A stretch of 64,000 nucleotides of DNA, taken from Exiguobacterium alkaliphilum 12/1. GTDB taxonomy: Bacteria > Bacillota > Bacilli > Exiguobacteriales > Exiguobacteriaceae. This document shows positions 14,354-31,014 of the stretch, piece by piece (position 1 is the first letter of the stretch; every line of letters begins with the position of its first letter). The position numbers and the translations under genes are program-made. Location of the stretch: positions 1 to 64,000 of the forward strand of contig NZ_JJMW01000071.1 in NCBI RefSeq assembly GCF_000714435.1, read 5' to 3'. Below the pieces are notes generated by a model. That model was not told the origin of the DNA, did no database searches, and saw only the letters and a list, made by a program, of their open reading frames with translations.

Positions 14354-14388
14354 AGAAGGTGATGAATTACACAGAGGAGGAACTTACA

Positions 14389-15681
14389 GTGAAGATTTTC
14401 AAAAACTTTACGACGCAGCTACTCGCGTGGATTTTGGTCACATCGATCGTGACGGGCGGTTCGGTCGGGTACATCACGCTTCTATTACTTACGGAGCTCG
14501 AGATGGAAAAAGGTCAAGTCATGCTCGTCGGGACGGCCGTGTCGCTTCTCATTTCAACTATCGGCAGTATCGTCATCTACTTGATTGCGCGCCGTCCGCT
14601 CAAAGCGATCGAGTCGGCGTCGGATAAGGCGGTCCAAGTCGGTAACGGTGACTTGACGGTCGAATTTGCGAACGAGTCGACGAACGACCGCTCGGAGATG
14701 GGGCGTCTGCTCCTGTCGATGGACAACATGGTCGGACACCTCCGAGAGCAAGGAACGAACATGCGCTATACGGCGGACCAATTGACGGGTTCGGCGCAAG
14801 AAATCGCGGCGGCCGTCCAAGAAGGGAACGTCGCCGGCGAGAACATCCGCCAAGCGATGGACGCATTGAACAAGATGCTCGAAGACAACGTCAACGCGAC
14901 GTACAGCTCGATGGACTTGCTTGGGGCTGTTGCCCGGACGATGGAAAACATTCGTAACGAGATGGGCTCGGCTTTGAATGCGGCGAGTGAGATGCAACAC
15001 GAGGCCGAGAGCGGGAAAGGCCTCGCCTCGTCGTCGGTCGATGCGATGCATGCGATTGCCGGCAAGGTCGAGCAGTCGTCGACGCTCAACAGCAAGTTGA
15101 CGGAGATGACAGGTGAGATTTCACGGATCACGGACGTCATTAGTGACATTTCAGCACAGACAAACCTGTTGGCGTTGAACGCGTCGATTGAAGCGGCACG
15201 GGCCGGCGAACACGGACGCGGTTTCGCGGTCGTCGCGGCCGAGGTCAAAAAGCTCGCTGAACAGACGGCGAACTCGACGCAAGAGATCACCGATTTGATT
15301 GTCGACGTCAAACGTCTTGTTGGTGACACGTCGTCTTCGATGGCGAACGTGAAAGCGGAAGTCGAGACAGGGGTCGGTCTTGTCGAGAAGGCGGGCGGTG
15401 CGTTCGCGACGATTCACAACTCGGCGAACGAAGTGTACAGCCACGTCCATTCGGTCGATGCGCTCTTAGATGAGTCGCGCGGTCAGATTGATTCGGTCGT
15501 CACGAACTCGGCGGGCATTGTCGGAATGGTCGAAGAGGCGTCACGTTACGCCACAGAAGTGACGTCGGCGGCGAGCCAGCAGGCAGCCAGTCTCGGGGAA
15601 GTGAACGGGGCGATGACGGAACTCGTGCGTGTCGCGGAAAGTTTACAGAATGAGACGGAGCAAGTGAAGGTGGAAGCGTAA
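14389..15681 (+). CDS. Methyl-accepting chemotaxis protein without a large ligand domain
   Basis: The start is the GTG at 14389, 7 nt after GGAGGAA, giving 430 residues. Two membrane helices (about residues 9-30 and 42-66) are joined by only a short external loop, so there is no extracytoplasmic ligand-binding domain. A HAMP segment follows at about 65-120. The long coiled-coil cytoplasmic domain contains the hairpin tip ([20 protein letters not shown] at about 255-275), which binds CheA and CheW, flanked by helices that should be methylated. It may sense membrane state or an intracellular cue. Ends at an intrinsic terminator. Confidence 0.92.
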
Positions 15682-15683
15682 AT

Positions 15684-15722
15684 TGATGGGACAATCTTTG
15701 AAAAAAGGTCGTCCCATTTTAA
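15684..15722 (+). terminator. Intrinsic terminator after the chemoreceptor gene
   Basis: ATGGGAC at 15686 onward pairs with GTCCCAT before TTTTAATT. The loop is long (about 20 nt). It marks the left limit of the AT-rich island. Confidence 0.65.
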
Positions 15723-15736
15723 TTGAGGTGATAACT

Positions 15737-16246
15737 ATGATTAACGAATCGGGATACTATTTGTTTCGGGTTGAGAAAGTGATTGAAAGCGAAAATTTGA
15801 AACAGATTGAAACCCTGTATATTATTGATTTCGTGGTAGAAAGTGATTTTGTAGACTTCCTTTCCAATCAAGAAACACTCGGTGTAAATATAGAAGAAGC
15901 AATAGAGAAGCGAGTACGTGAATTGAAATCAAGTCATATATTTCTTAGAGGAATTAGAGAAAATTTAGAGGAGGATGAAGTATTTCAATTATCCTCAAAA
16001 GTAGTGAATCTTCTTTTTGAAAACAGCTTGGATAGTAAAGCGTTTCAAGAGTTGTTAAATCAATATGACATTTTTTATAAACTGATCATTGGAGTTGTAG
16101 ATATTTATGCTAGTGGTATCGACGATAGGAGAGATTATAAAGAATTAGTACTCGAAGAAGATATTATTGGAAAACGAAAAATGACACGTAAATACTCTAA
16201 AGCATACAATTTTATATCTGATCGAAAATTATTTAGACAAGGATGA
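15737..16246 (+). CDS. Unknown protein of the AT-rich island (first gene)
   Basis: The start is ATG 15737, because GAGGTGAT lies 8 nt upstream; an in-frame extension back to 15683 crosses the terminator. The 169-residue product is acidic, helical and has no membrane segment or recognised domain. Notable stretches are IDFVVESDFVDFL, EKRVRELKSSHIF and a basic C-terminus (KRKMTRKYSKAYNF). Codon use is strikingly AT-rich compared with both neighbours, which points to horizontal acquisition. The stop lies 6 nt before the next gene, so the two form an operon. A function cannot be assigned; partner proteins of MBL-fold enzymes in small mobile systems are a reasonable comparison, nothing more. Confidence 0.6.
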   Translation: MINESGYYLFRVEKVIESENLKQIETLYIIDFVVESDFVDFLSNQETLGVNIEEAIEKRVRELKSSHIFLRGIRENLEEDEVFQLSSKVVNLLFENSLDSKAFQELLNQYDIFYKLIIGVVDIYASGIDDRRDYKELVLEEDIIGKRKMTRKYSKAYNFISDRKLFRQG

Positions 16247-16252
16247 TAACTA

Positions 16253-16417
16253 ATGTTAGAAGCGAAAATTAATTTCGTAGGAAGAGGGAATTGGAGTGAG
16301 ATTAAATTTCAGATAGATAATACTACTTACGAGATTTTATATGACATTGGATTTTCAATGAAAAATATTTGTTACACAAAAAATGGAGTCTCAACTTTGT
16401 TCACTCCTGAAATGTGA
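16253..16417 (+). pseudogene. N-terminal piece of a split metallo-beta-lactamase-fold protein
   Basis: This 54-codon frame starts 6 nt after the preceding gene, with AAGGATGATAACT before its ATG. Its product has the two opening beta strands typical of an MBL fold (KINFVGRGNWSEIKF and YEILYDIGFS). The histidine motif that should follow is found only in the next frame, one base back. The TGA stop at 16415-16417 overlaps the GTG at 16414, from which the larger frame may be re-initiated. It is best read as the missing N-terminus of the next entry. Confidence 0.6.
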
Positions 16418-17238
16418 TTGGTAATGAACCATTAGTAAATTATAAAGCGAATAAAAGCTCAGAAACTAAAAGACTTCTAATAATCAGTCACTGGGATTTA
16501 GATCATTATTCAGTCATACAGAGCTTCGCAGACGAAGAACTAGATTTATTCGATAAAGTAGTTGTACCAGAAGCACATACTTCAAAAACTTCCGTAGAAG
16601 TAATAAAATGGATGTCCAAAATATTAGGGGATAAATTATGTTGCATCAAACAGTCGCCCAGGGCTGCGGGGGGTGTGCATATCATAAAAGAACCACCTTT
16701 ATTTCCGGATTTGAGCAGTAGCAAAATCAATGTAGGCCTGTACAAAACTTCATATTCACAAAGTAGAAATAATGGAGGTCTTATCTTAATCATAAAGATA
16801 GCTAACACATTATTAATGTTTAGTGGTGATCATCATTATCTTAGTTTGAAAAGATGCTTAGAATACATAAATTTAGAGTCGATAGAAGAAATGGCTGTAG
16901 TTGTTCCTCATCACGGAGGTCTTGCTGGTTCATTGGATGATTTTCTTAATGAAATCCGATTAAATCAAATCAATACGACTTGGTATTTGTCAGCTGGGGT
17001 TGATCATGAATCGCTCTGTAAAATTTTGTATGAGGGAGAAGAGATTACCTTGAACAAATGGCATCCAAGAAAATCGGTTATGGACTCTATTAGGCTTCCT
17101 GTTTTGAAAACTCTTGATGTAAAAAGTAATACATATTTGAGCGAAGAAGGAAGACATTTAAAAATAAGAGTGAATCAAGATGGTGAAATAAAAAATTCTA
17201 AATTGTCATTAAACATATTAGAAAATACTCCGATATAG
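16414..17238 (+). CDS. Metallo-beta-lactamase-fold protein, main part (AT-rich island, second gene)
   Basis: The frame opens at a GTG overlapping the stop of the N-terminal piece. It contains the MBL metal motif SHWDLDHY (residues about 26-33; first His replaced by a SHxDxDH-like form), FSGDHHY near residue 137 and VPHHGG near 162. This is the pattern of ComEC/Rec2-like MBL hydrolases. The protein probably binds two metal ions and hydrolyses a phosphoester or a similar bond; the substrate is unknown. It is about 275 residues here and about 328 if joined to the upstream piece by a -1 shift. Base use is as AT-rich as the first island gene. The last nine codons contain the hag sigma-D promoter. 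Confidence 0.65.
   Translation: MIGNEPLVNYKANKSSETKRLLIISHWDLDHYSVIQSFADEELDLFDKVVVPEAHTSKTSVEVIKWMSKILGDKLCCIKQSPRAAGGVHIIKEPPLFPDLSSSKINVGLYKTSYSQSRNNGGLILIIKIANTLLMFSGDHHYLSLKRCLEYINLESIEEMAVVVPHHGGLAGSLDDFLNEIRLNQINTTWYLSAGVDHESLCKILYEGEEITLNKWHPRKSVMDSIRLPVLKTLDVKSNTYLSEEGRHLKIRVNQDGEIKNSKLSLNILENTPI
17210..17236 (+). promoter_or_regulatory. Sigma-D promoter of hag
   Basis: TAAA at 17210-17213 and TCCGATAT at 17229-17236 are 15 nt apart, a near-perfect SigD promoter, identical in form to the one inside comFC. The -10 element overlaps the stop codon of the MBL gene. Transcription would start near 17243, leaving a leader of about 115 nt. Confidence 0.88.
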
Positions 17239-17359: not shown

Positions 17360-18766
17360 ATGATTATTAACCACAACTTAAACGCGATGAATGCACACCG
17401 TAACATGTCGTTCAACACGACAAACACGGGTAAAGCGATGGAGAAGTTGTCTTCGGGTCTTCGTATCAACCGTGCTGGCGACGATGCTGCTGGTCTCGCA
17501 ATCTCTGAAAAAATGCGTGGACAAATTCGTGGTCTTGATCAAGCTTCCCGTAACGCTCAAGACGGTATCTCTCTCATCCAAACGGCTGAAGGCGCTTTAA
17601 ACGAAACGCACTCAATCCTTCAACGTATGCGTGAACTATCAGTGCAATCATCAAACGGATCTAACACAGATGCAGATCGAAACGAGATTCAGAAAGAAGT
17701 TTCTCAGTTAACGCAAGAAATTGATAGAATTCGAGATACAACAGAGTTCAATACAAAAAAACTTTTAAATGGAGATATGGCTGTTAAAGCTACGTCATCT
17801 ACTACTGGAATTCAAGGTGTAGAGTTGAAAAATGATAATGTCGTTGCTGGAAGTTACTCGATTACAGCTGCGGCAGCAGGCGATGTAACTCTTGGTGCAA
17901 CTGTAACTTCATCAACAATTTCTGGATTCAATGCGGATGCTGATATTGTTTTTGCAGCCGATGCAGATCTTGAAAACCTTGAACTAGGTGAGTATAAGTT
18001 AATCTCTTCAGATGCTGGTGCGGGAAACTTTAAATTGGAACTTCAAGATGCGAACGGTAAAGTGGTTGCTTCAAATGCTTCAGTTGCAGCAAATGCTGCA
18101 GCGACACTCTCTGGTGCGGGTGGAGTAACTTTCAAAGTTGCAGCTAACGCCGTAGCATCAACTGGTGAAGCAAACTTTAAGTTAGAAGCCACAACAGCAG
18201 CAGCTTTGACATTAACTGATGCTTCTGGAACTGTTGCGACCCTTGCTTCGGGATCGGTTTCAAAAAATGGAGTTTTTGAGGTTGGTAACTTCAAAATTGA
18301 ACTTAACTCAGAAGCATTTGCATCGAAAGCTGCTCTAGCATCTACAGCGTTGTTTGCTGGTACTGTTACTAATAAAGCAGAAACTTTCCAAATTGGAGCA
18401 AACGAAGGCCAAGTAACAAAACTTGGAATCAGTGATATGAGTGCCTCTAGTTTAGGAATTAATGCTCTTGATTTAACGTCAGCATCTTCTGCTCAAGTAG
18501 CAATCTCAAAAATCAATACTGCAATTGAAAAAGTGTCTGGGGAGCGTTCGAAATTAGGTGCAAACCAAAACCGTCTCGAGCACACAATCAACAACTTGAA
18601 CGTTGGAGCTGAAAACCTTCAAGCTGCAGAATCACGTGTACGTGACGTAGACATGGCTAAAGAGATGATGAACTTCACGAAGAACAACATCCTCAACCAA
18701 GCTGCGCAAGCAATGATGGCTCAATCTCAATCACAACCCCAAGCAGTTCTACAACTTCTTCGGTAA
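17360..18766 (+). CDS. hag: Hag, major flagellin (reading frame of the unspliced mRNA; exon 1 is 17360-18721)
   Basis: Flagellin is the exported filament subunit. Residues 1-135 are the conserved D0/D1 helices ([18 protein letters not shown], then [17 protein letters not shown]). Residues 370-454 are the matching C-terminal helices. The middle (about 140-365) is long, rich in alanine, serine and threonine, AT-richer in codons and unlike the 304-residue B. subtilis protein. Exon 1 ends after codon 454 (GCT at 18719-18721). Read straight through, 14 further codons inside a group I intron give [14 protein letters not shown] and a stop at 18764. After splicing, codon 455 onward comes from 19118-19162 and gives [14 protein letters not shown]. 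Both products have 468 residues. FliS and FliW are expected binding partners. Confidence 0.95.
18722..18766 (+). other. Intron-encoded alternative flagellin C-terminus (in the P1 loop)
   Basis: The first 45 nt of the intron continue the hag frame without a break for 14 codons and stop with TAA. The peptide matches the exon 2 peptide at 11 of 14 positions and has the same length; the differences are S/A, Q/N and S/Q at residues 456-458. Of the 11 shared residues, 8 use a different codon. The sequence therefore preserves the protein, not the DNA. Apart from the CAATC at its 5' end, which extends P1, it lies in the P1 loop and is not needed for the ribozyme core. Confidence 0.85.
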
Positions 18767-19117
18767 TGATTGACGGGCGTCTTATCTGGTAACGGATAGG
18801 AGTATAACTGGGTGAATTGCTGGGACTCCTTAGAGCCCTCCTTACGACAACGTGACTGGAAACGGTGAGCGTGAACGTTTTGAAAAAAGGAAGGGATTGG
18901 ACAATCAGCAGCCAAGCATCTGTCAGGAAACTGTGATGAAGGTTCAACGACTAGGATGAACGACCTACCGACATAATGTCCATGGTTATGAGATCCGTAC
19001 CTCGACAACGGCGAGGGAAGTGCCCAGCCCCTATTTTACAATAATAATGATTTTTATATTGATATTGTAAAAGGGTGAAGATATAGTCTAGACCATATTG
19101 AAAAATATGGGCATCTG
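18722..19117 (+). ncRNA. Group I self-splicing intron in hag (396 nt)
   Basis: The core helices can be read directly. P1 is GATGGCT (18715-18721, exon) with GGGCGTC (18775-18781), a U-G pair at the splice site and one G-G mismatch, extended by CAATC/GATTG. P2 is TTATC/GATAG (18782-18799). P3 is ATAACT (18804)/GGTTAT (18984). P4 is TTGCTG (18817)/CAGCAG (18906). P6 spans 18917-18938, P7 is GACTA (18949)/TAGTC (19084), P8 is CCTCG (19000)/CGAGG (19012) and P9 is CCATAT (19093)/ATATGG (19105). The intron ends in the required G at 19117. Sequence between P7 and P3' suggests P7.1/P7.2, as in subgroup IA. No endonuclease gene lies inside. An AT-rich hairpin, TTTTACAATA/TATTGTAAAA, lies near 19033-19072. 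Group I introns are known in flagellin genes of thermophilic Bacillus and Geobacillus. Confidence 0.92.
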
Positions 19118-19193: not shown

Positions 19194-19225
19194 AAAACCG
19201 TGAAGCTTATGCTTCACGGTTTTTG
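19194..19225. terminator. Bidirectional terminator between hag and the endonuclease gene
   Basis: AAACCGTGAAGC pairs with GCTTCACGGTTT across TTAT, with A- and T-runs on the flanks. It overlaps the last codons of the leftward endonuclease gene. Confidence 0.88.
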
Positions 19226-20042
19226 ACGTCTTGCCATTTATAAACGACCGACCAATACGTACGGTTCAACCGTCGGGCAATCTCTTTATCCGTCACGCGC
19301 TGCTGTTTCCATTTGATGAGTAAAGCGATATCCTCGTCACTATACGGCCTAGCGGGGACGGAGACGCGAATCGTGTAGTCCGGGTGTGATTGCTTATACA
19401 GCTCGATTTCGTTCTTCAGACGTGTTTCCCATGACAGTTTATAAGTGAATTCTCGTAGTTCGGCGATATATGGCTCGAGTAAATCCAAAATGTCGAACGT
19501 GTCAGTCACTTTCGTCATTTTTAAATAACAGCCTGTACCGCTCGGCGTGCCCGTTGTTCGCACATTGATGTCATAACGTGCTTTCATCCAGATGGCTAAC
19601 TGTTTCAACTGTTGTCTCGAGAAGGCTTGTAAGTAGAAAGCGATATGCGGGGTAAATTGAATCTCTTTCTTGTTGTGATTGAATCGTTTACTGAGGAGGA
19701 GTGAGCCATCGTCCAAATAGAGTGTGAGCAGACATGAAGGATGATGAATGTCTTCAAGCAACTCGAACGGAATGTGTTTCTTATTGTCCGGATAAAAATG
19801 AGGGAAGAGTTTCGTCATCAACGGAATGGAGCGCGACACAAGATTGTTTCCTCGTAAATACAATATGTCAGAGAGCTTTTTTGCTTCCATTGGCGATAAC
19901 TTAACTGGCCCATCCCAAAATGCTCCCGGTAACTGTTGTTTACACGTCGATCATATGGATAGCACTTCGTGATTTCACCATCCCCTAAAATACTAGCGAC
20001 TAAAATGGCTACCTGTTCCTCGGATAGTCCTTCCCAGTCCAT
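19207..20042 (-). pseudogene. LAGLIDADG homing endonuclease, frameshifted
   Basis: Two overlapping leftward frames together encode one LAGLIDADG protein. The 5' frame (from ATG 20042, behind AAGGGGAGAAG) has the first motif, LVASILGDGEI. The 3' frame (to 19207) has the second, LLTLYLDDGSLL, and ends in a helix-turn-helix tail (YSDEDIALLIKW ... DKEIARRLNRTYWSVV). They are joined by a -1 shift at a run of six A (19877-19882, T on the plus strand). Seven A would restore a continuous protein of about 278 residues. Such enzymes cut an intronless target and promote intron copying. It lies outside the hag intron, on the opposite strand, 45 nt after exon 2. Its base use is less GC-rich than that of the neighbours. 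Confidence 0.82.
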
Positions 20043-30504: not shown

Positions 30505-30775
30505 ACGCTGCACCATCCTCCTCATATTGGATTTTCAGGATCGGCTAAATGTTAGCGGCACAAACCTAAATCATCTCTTCCATGATATATCACAAAAAAT
30601 GTAAACTCAATATGACAATATGAAAAGTAGGGAAATATAATTCCAATGTAAGCCAAAAAGTAAATCGTTTGCAAAATATTGAGAAAGTGTTTGTCACGCC
30701 ATCCATAAGGTGGTAAGATTACCGGTAGAGGGAAAGCCTCTGTATTCTTCAATGGTGAAAGGAATGGATTTACAC

Positions 30776-30973
30776 ATGGTAGGTAAAGTAAAATGGTTTA
30801 ACTCAGAAAAAGGTTTTGGATTCATCGAAGTAGAAGGCGGCAAAGACGTGTTCGTACACTTCTCAGCAATCCAAACTGACGGCTACAAATCACTTGACGA
30901 AGGTCAAGAGGTAGAGTTTGAAATCGTTGATGGCGAGCGTGGCCCACAAGCGGCTAACGTTGTAAAATTATAA
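30776..30973 (+). CDS. Cold-shock protein (CspB/CspA family)
   Basis: The 65-residue protein has the complete cold-shock domain with both RNA-binding motifs (KGFGFIE and VFVHFSAI). It acts as an RNA chaperone. ATG 30776 is set by alignment to the family; AAAGGA lies 12 nt upstream. The longer open frame from 30710 is a leader without homology. The untranslated leader is AT-rich, which is common for cold-shock mRNAs. A terminator follows. Confidence 0.95.
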
Positions 30974-30980
30974 TTTCAAA

Positions 30981-31014
30981 CTGAGCCGGCTCTCGCGTAG
31001 AGCCGGCTTTTTTG
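30981..31014 (+). terminator. Intrinsic terminator
   Basis: GAGCCGGCTCT pairs with AGAGCCGGCTT across CGCGT, followed by TTTTTG. Confidence 0.92.

Follow-up and report, generated by a model that had tools for sequence, protein, structure and literature searches.

ComEC-like enzymes of the MBL fold have recently been described as DNA-cleaving effectors that are released by a partner protease (2025; PMC12799240, in the sections consulted), and the gated nuclease-protease pairs treated there include HamM, the Avs1a nuclease, the Lamassu hydrolase and CanC. The locus described here resembles these pairs in encoding a ComEC-like MBL enzyme in a small operon, and the enzyme gives weak PADLOC matches to two defence MBLs, LmuA (3e-6) and RTasMBL (1e-5 to 3e-5). 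It differs from them in that neither a trypsin-like nor a caspase gene is adjacent and in that the partner is a protein of 90-170 aa or a fused domain, with its fold unassigned. Because no protease partner is adjacent, the pair lies outside the published gated systems. The MBL domain of ComEC/Rec2, which functions in natural transformation, has the same fold and the same HxDxDH and GD/HHG motifs, and its structures were the only PDB relatives found, accounting for all six of the matches listed in each of two profile searches (E values of 6.5e-9 and 8.2e-8). In contrast to ComEC/Rec2, the family is without the membrane competence part, is fused to or paired with an unrelated N-terminal domain, and stands apart in a ten-row tree, in which eight family loci are separated from two ComEC-type rows with a support of 100/99 and many end branches are long. 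Secreted ComEC-like proteins from Bacillales, of about 280 aa or more, share the ComEC-type MBL fold as well; they differ in carrying a signal peptide (judged by reading), in having HPDADH rather than SHWDLDH, and in being common and chromosomal, and the one tested (L019) fell outside the family in the tree. In our search of the literature on flagellin and defence hotspots and on MBL/ComEC proteins in defence, only PMC12799240 was directly relevant, and the consulted sections of a paper on Exiguobacterium genomes (PMC13233415) do not mention the gene pair.

The window, by which we mean the whole stretch of 64,000 nucleotides of Exiguobacterium alkaliphilum 12/1 that was analysed, contains this pair on an AT-rich island between the mcp stop at 15681 and the hag start at 17360. 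The features are as follows.

14359-15681, + strand: mcp, the flanking chemoreceptor gene, found as a neighbour of hag, 87-98% identical, in 16 of 18 genus relatives
15684-15722, + strand: terminator-like hairpin of the upstream mcp, the left island edge (fold of -17.2 kcal/mol, z of -3.9)
15737-16246, + strand: gene 1, 169 aa, an intact open frame of no recognised family, standing where five of the eight family loci have an N-terminal domain fused to the MBL
16253-16417, + strand: first part of gene 2 (MBL), the upstream piece of a frameshifted gene, 54 codons followed by TGA (stop at 16415-16417)
16414-17238, + strand: remainder of gene 2, in a different frame, a ComEC-type MBL with SHWDLDH, SGDHHY and PHHGG and with ComEC profile matches
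17210-17236, + strand: hag promoter-like element TAAA-N16-CCGATAT, the right island edge, common to empty-site relatives
17360-18766, + strand: hag, the flanking flagellin gene, with Pfam flagellin N and C domains

The GC content of the island is 0.322, against a mean of 0.553 (sd 0.054) over the window (z of -4.3; 1.5-kb segments, n = 625), and the segment with the lowest value starts at 15701, on the island itself. The initial annotation was correct in calling the island more AT-rich than all of its neighbours, but hag is AT-rich too (0.425). The annotation had also placed the island between the mcp terminator and the hag promoter. The hairpin is indeed present on the left, where none of 200 shuffled sequences folded equally well and where empty-site relatives have an mcp terminator-like sequence at the same place. 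On the right lies the promoter-like element, which we take to be that of hag by its likeness to the SigD consensus; it overlaps the end of gene 2, falling within the last codons.

Gene 1 was checked as an open frame for a 169-residue protein, with a 6-nt gap to the next ATG, as first annotated. None of Pfam, PADLOC, NCBIfam, PHROGs and PDB yielded a significant match to it, the best row being phrog_4616 with an E value of 0.0085, and assignment to a known family was dropped. Nor was a protease match obtained in Pfam, PADLOC and further profile scans, and a search of the 37 other genomes of the order gave no significant match, only two chance-level rows at an E value of 0.2. By position, the gene occupies the slot of the N-terminal domain seen in three related loci described below (L014, L135 and L231). 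The best hhalign comparison with N-terminal domains gave an E value of 0.015 and a score matched by 2 of 80 shuffles, and the other profiles did no better than shuffles; gene 1 was thus not accepted as a homologue of the fused domains, the slot fitting and the similarity not being significant.

Gene 2 is frameshifted in the window copy, a fact overlooked when 16253-17238 was annotated as one MBL gene. The interval spans 986 nt and does contain all three motifs, but it is not a single open frame: a stop follows codon 54, and it is the frame of 16414-17238, not that from 16253, that encodes the catalytic motifs. An intact gene 2, encoding 328 aa, is present on another contig of the same assembly, C25 (85,324 bases), which is identical to the contig of the window, C70 (85,323 bases), except for one base in a short A run within gene 2; relative to C25, the enzyme gene in C70 is broken by a one-base frameshift. 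Because the frame is intact on the sister contig, a programmed frameshift was set aside as an explanation. The change is plausibly a real variant in the culture, and it may alternatively be an assembly error. Duplicate contigs were sought by comparing the starts of the other 69 contigs, up to 1500 bases of each, and the small contigs over their full length. Ten further equal-length pairs were compared, of which nine were identical (one compared over 20,000 of its 20,237 bases) and one had a single substitution in a guaA-like gene; contigs C12 and C40 have their first 1500 bases in common and differ in length. Taken with C25/C70, the ten comparisons give about 155 kb of duplicated sequence with two differences, one of them the gene 2 frameshift. 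As a separate observation on the assembly (G000), it contains at least eleven contig pairs, C25/C70 among them, that are identical or nearly so, and these may account for part of its contamination estimate of 7.58%.

A peptide-pattern scan of the genome collection with the intact gene 2 protein found four relatives, and profile searches added others. The family as treated here consists of the window pair and the following loci; it is a small set, drawn from searches that covered part of each group.

L014, Bacillaceae: one fused protein, N-terminal part plus MBL (pattern scan)
L015, Paludibacteraceae: one fused protein, N-terminal part plus MBL (pattern scan)
L016, Lachnospiraceae: one fused protein with a NUDIX domain at its start, then N-terminal part plus MBL (pattern scan)
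L017, Haloplasma: one fused protein, N-terminal part plus MBL (pattern scan)
L054, genome G027 of the sister genus: 600-aa fused protein (profile search)
L135, genome G800: two genes, 91 aa and then the MBL, with a 25-nt gap (profile search)
L231, genome G1076: two genes, 119 aa and then 275 aa, almost overlapping (profile search)

Thus, in five of the eight loci a single polypeptide comprises both the N-terminal part and the enzyme, which the initial annotation had missed, and in the remaining three (window, L135 and L231) the two are encoded by a tight two-gene pair. The N-terminal parts of L014 and L135 are homologous (none of 300 shuffles scored as well), and that of L231 aligns with both by eye; among more distant members, most pairs of N-terminal parts are not significantly alike. 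The metal-site residues of HxDxDH, GD and HHG are invariant in all seven aligned sequences (L135 left out). The gated nucleases are marked by two insertions that gate the active site and by conserved cleavage residues; the window enzyme has an insertion around residues 44-70 and an extended C-terminal part, neither of which the other seven family members have. The two AlphaFold models obtained were poor, with mean pLDDT values of 41.9 and 37.4.

Presence of the family is sporadic. Gene 2 is found in none of the 18 other genomes of the genus, and a distant relative in the sister genus was found only in G027, among the weaker MBL rows inspected. At an E value of 1e-20, 1 of 398 genomes of the class scored, the window's own, a threshold that misses the G027 member; in another order, 2 of 397 genomes had a member after exclusion of eight weaker matches that proved to be ComEC or secreted ComEC-like proteins. 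Profile A2 at an E value of 1e-20 was itself discarded as a family criterion for want of specificity, because a ComEC protein (L039) scored 5.9e-23 and the real G027 member only 2.1e-18. A pattern scan of the 398 genomes returned mostly unrelated proteins or ComEC, and among the 13 of its loci that were inspected, 8 had an open frame, including the family members L047 and L053. A phage or plasmid origin was rejected, no homologue being found in the plasmid, phage or viral collections (the phage collection being searched with the MBL only). The initial suggestion, an MBL operon that was acquired together with a lineage-specific partner and that may serve in defence, holds: none of the 18 other genomes of the genus has the pair, the family is rare, and three of the seven other loci adjoin recognised defence genes. 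Single homologues scattered through core genomes of normal composition, or a housekeeping role of the pair, would have spoken against it, and neither came to light.

The likeness to ComEC-type enzymes that was first drawn from motifs is borne out by the profile searches. Against Pfam, the 328-aa protein gave no match above the cut-off, whether to a competence family or to any other, and gene 2 is, as judged from its sequence, a soluble ComEC-type MBL enzyme. Kinship with ComEC/Rec2 suggests that it is most likely a metal-dependent DNase. Separately, the protein P0003 and the L231 MBL each weakly match phrog_7043, a phage tail protein family of 1077 positions, which suggests a ComEC-like domain in that tail protein.

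The reading that we favour, with a probability of about one half, is that the island arose by horizontal acquisition of an accessory module of two genes at the mcp-hag junction, comprising a DNase effector and a regulatory or sensor partner and probably directed against phage. Gene 1 would most likely hold the enzyme inactive or sense the trigger; on detection of infection by the partner, the nuclease would be released and would degrade DNA, so that the cell is killed or arrested. No protease gene was found among the scanned neighbours of L015, L016, L054, L231 and L135, and the neighbours in the window are mcp, gene 1 and hag. Since no protease was found, control of the enzyme would run through the N-terminal part, whether fused or separate.

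The genomic context bears on the anti-phage role, the most likely one for the pair. Among the neighbours that we selected for scanning, recognised defence genes lie beside three of the seven other loci. In L054, Thoeris genes in the order ThsB/ThsA/ThsB stand directly upstream of the MBL gene, in an AT-rich insert after tmRNA (L054:3925-9175), and the 600-aa MBL protein there could be an add-on to Thoeris; in L015, putAbiC is directly upstream; and in L231, Cas12b lies about 2.5 kb downstream. The neighbours examined at L014, L016, L017 and L135 included no recognised defence gene. By reading of the sequence, L017 lies among recombinase-like genes and L014 adjoins an IS110-like gene. Between the MBL pair and the Cas12b locus, L231 also encodes a 203-aa protein (L231:6246-6857) that matches the phage family phrog_33519 (5.4e-23); its identification as a ToxN/AbiQ toxin was dropped, there being no Pfam or PADLOC match.

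Rather unlikely, in our estimate, is a toxin-antitoxin-like or otherwise selfish pair, in which gene 1 would neutralise an MBL enzyme that acts as a toxic nuclease, and which would persist by addiction and not by defence. The tight gene order with the small gene first in the window, L135 and L231 is as expected of such a pair. So is the finding that, of these three pairs, two are each disabled by one change, the window frameshift and, in L135, a stop at the active-site motif SHWxxDH, a pattern that would also fit a costly effector, the sample being tiny. However, both parts are one polypeptide in five of the eight loci, an arrangement unsuited to an unstable antitoxin, and the plasmid collection yielded no homologue.

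The same two lesions could be taken to mean that the island is foreign DNA in decay, which serves no function now and survives by chance where insertions are tolerated. We regard this as unlikely, because the assembly also contains an intact copy and because the MBL genes of L231, L014, L015, L016, L017 and L054 retain open frames with conserved metal-site motifs.

Overlooked in the initial annotation was the recurrence of the family beside hag. Four of the eight loci lie directly beside this gene and in its direction, the window pair and L014 upstream and L135 and L231 downstream; the other four (L015, L016, L017 and L054) are not beside hag in the stretches examined. On the tree, the four hag-adjacent loci require one change, a value as low in 7 of 500 shuffles, with a branch support of 40/8, and L014, L135 and L231 form a branch with a support of 93/95; a possible single origin of the four would be compatible with this tree. 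Group I introns occur at three of the four adjacent hag genes, in the window, in L135 (one) and in L231 (two), and the L014 hag locus gave no intron match.

hag itself occurs in each of the 37 other genomes of the order, which comprises 38 genomes in two genera. In the genus, hag was located in 18 other genomes and the surrounding 9-12 kb was examined: mcp adjoins it in 16, with a short gap (115-243 nt) in 10 and more than 1 kb of other cargo in 6. By reading of the proteins, this cargo consists of three SH3-domain glucosaminidase-like proteins, one coiled-coil protein, one EcsC-like protein and one remnant. In the sister genus, all 19 genomes have a short gap. With unrelated cargo in 6 of 16 relatives, the mcp-hag junction tolerates insertions in this genus and is not reserved for defence; that none of this cargo is defence-like is a point against the defence reading, and the tie of the family to flagellin may be an insertion hotspot only.

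An enzyme that acts on flagellin expression, mRNA or introns, its place beside hag being functional, would account for the four adjacent loci in hag's direction, the hag promoter within the coding end of gene 2 and the three introns, but it is quite improbable given the four loci elsewhere, the ubiquity of hag without a close relative of gene 1 in the order or of gene 2 in the genus, the position of the distant G027 relative away from its hag, the missing intron match in L014 and the unrelated cargo at the hag flank. Equally doubtful is a narrower form of the defence reading, in which this MBL sub-lineage would be a flagellin-locus defence module, retained next to hag in at least four distantly related genomes through a link between the flagellum and the expression or triggering of the module; it might, for example, answer phages that enter by the flagellum, the partner acting as sensor and the MBL as a DNA-destroying effector with no protease step. 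If, as the favoured reading has it, the family consists of DNase effectors whose partner is either built in or paired, this would amount to protease-free control of a ComEC-type nuclease alongside the gated nuclease-protease systems of 2025. The recurrence beside hag also offers a way to test whether anti-phage genes gather at flagellin loci for a functional reason or only because insertions are tolerated there.

Further features of the window deserve mention. A complete group I intron lies at the 3' end of hag (18751-19110; Rfam RF00028, 85.9 bits); such introns in flagellin genes of thermophilic Bacillus have already been published (PMC3984707, in the sections consulted). After the intron, on the minus strand, is a LAGLIDADG homing-endonuclease-like gene (19207-20042) with an upstream piece in another frame, and relatives of it come after hag in many genomes of the order. 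Finally, a match to the cspA thermoregulator RNA lies at 30626-31013, with 79 bits against an Rfam gathering score of 78.
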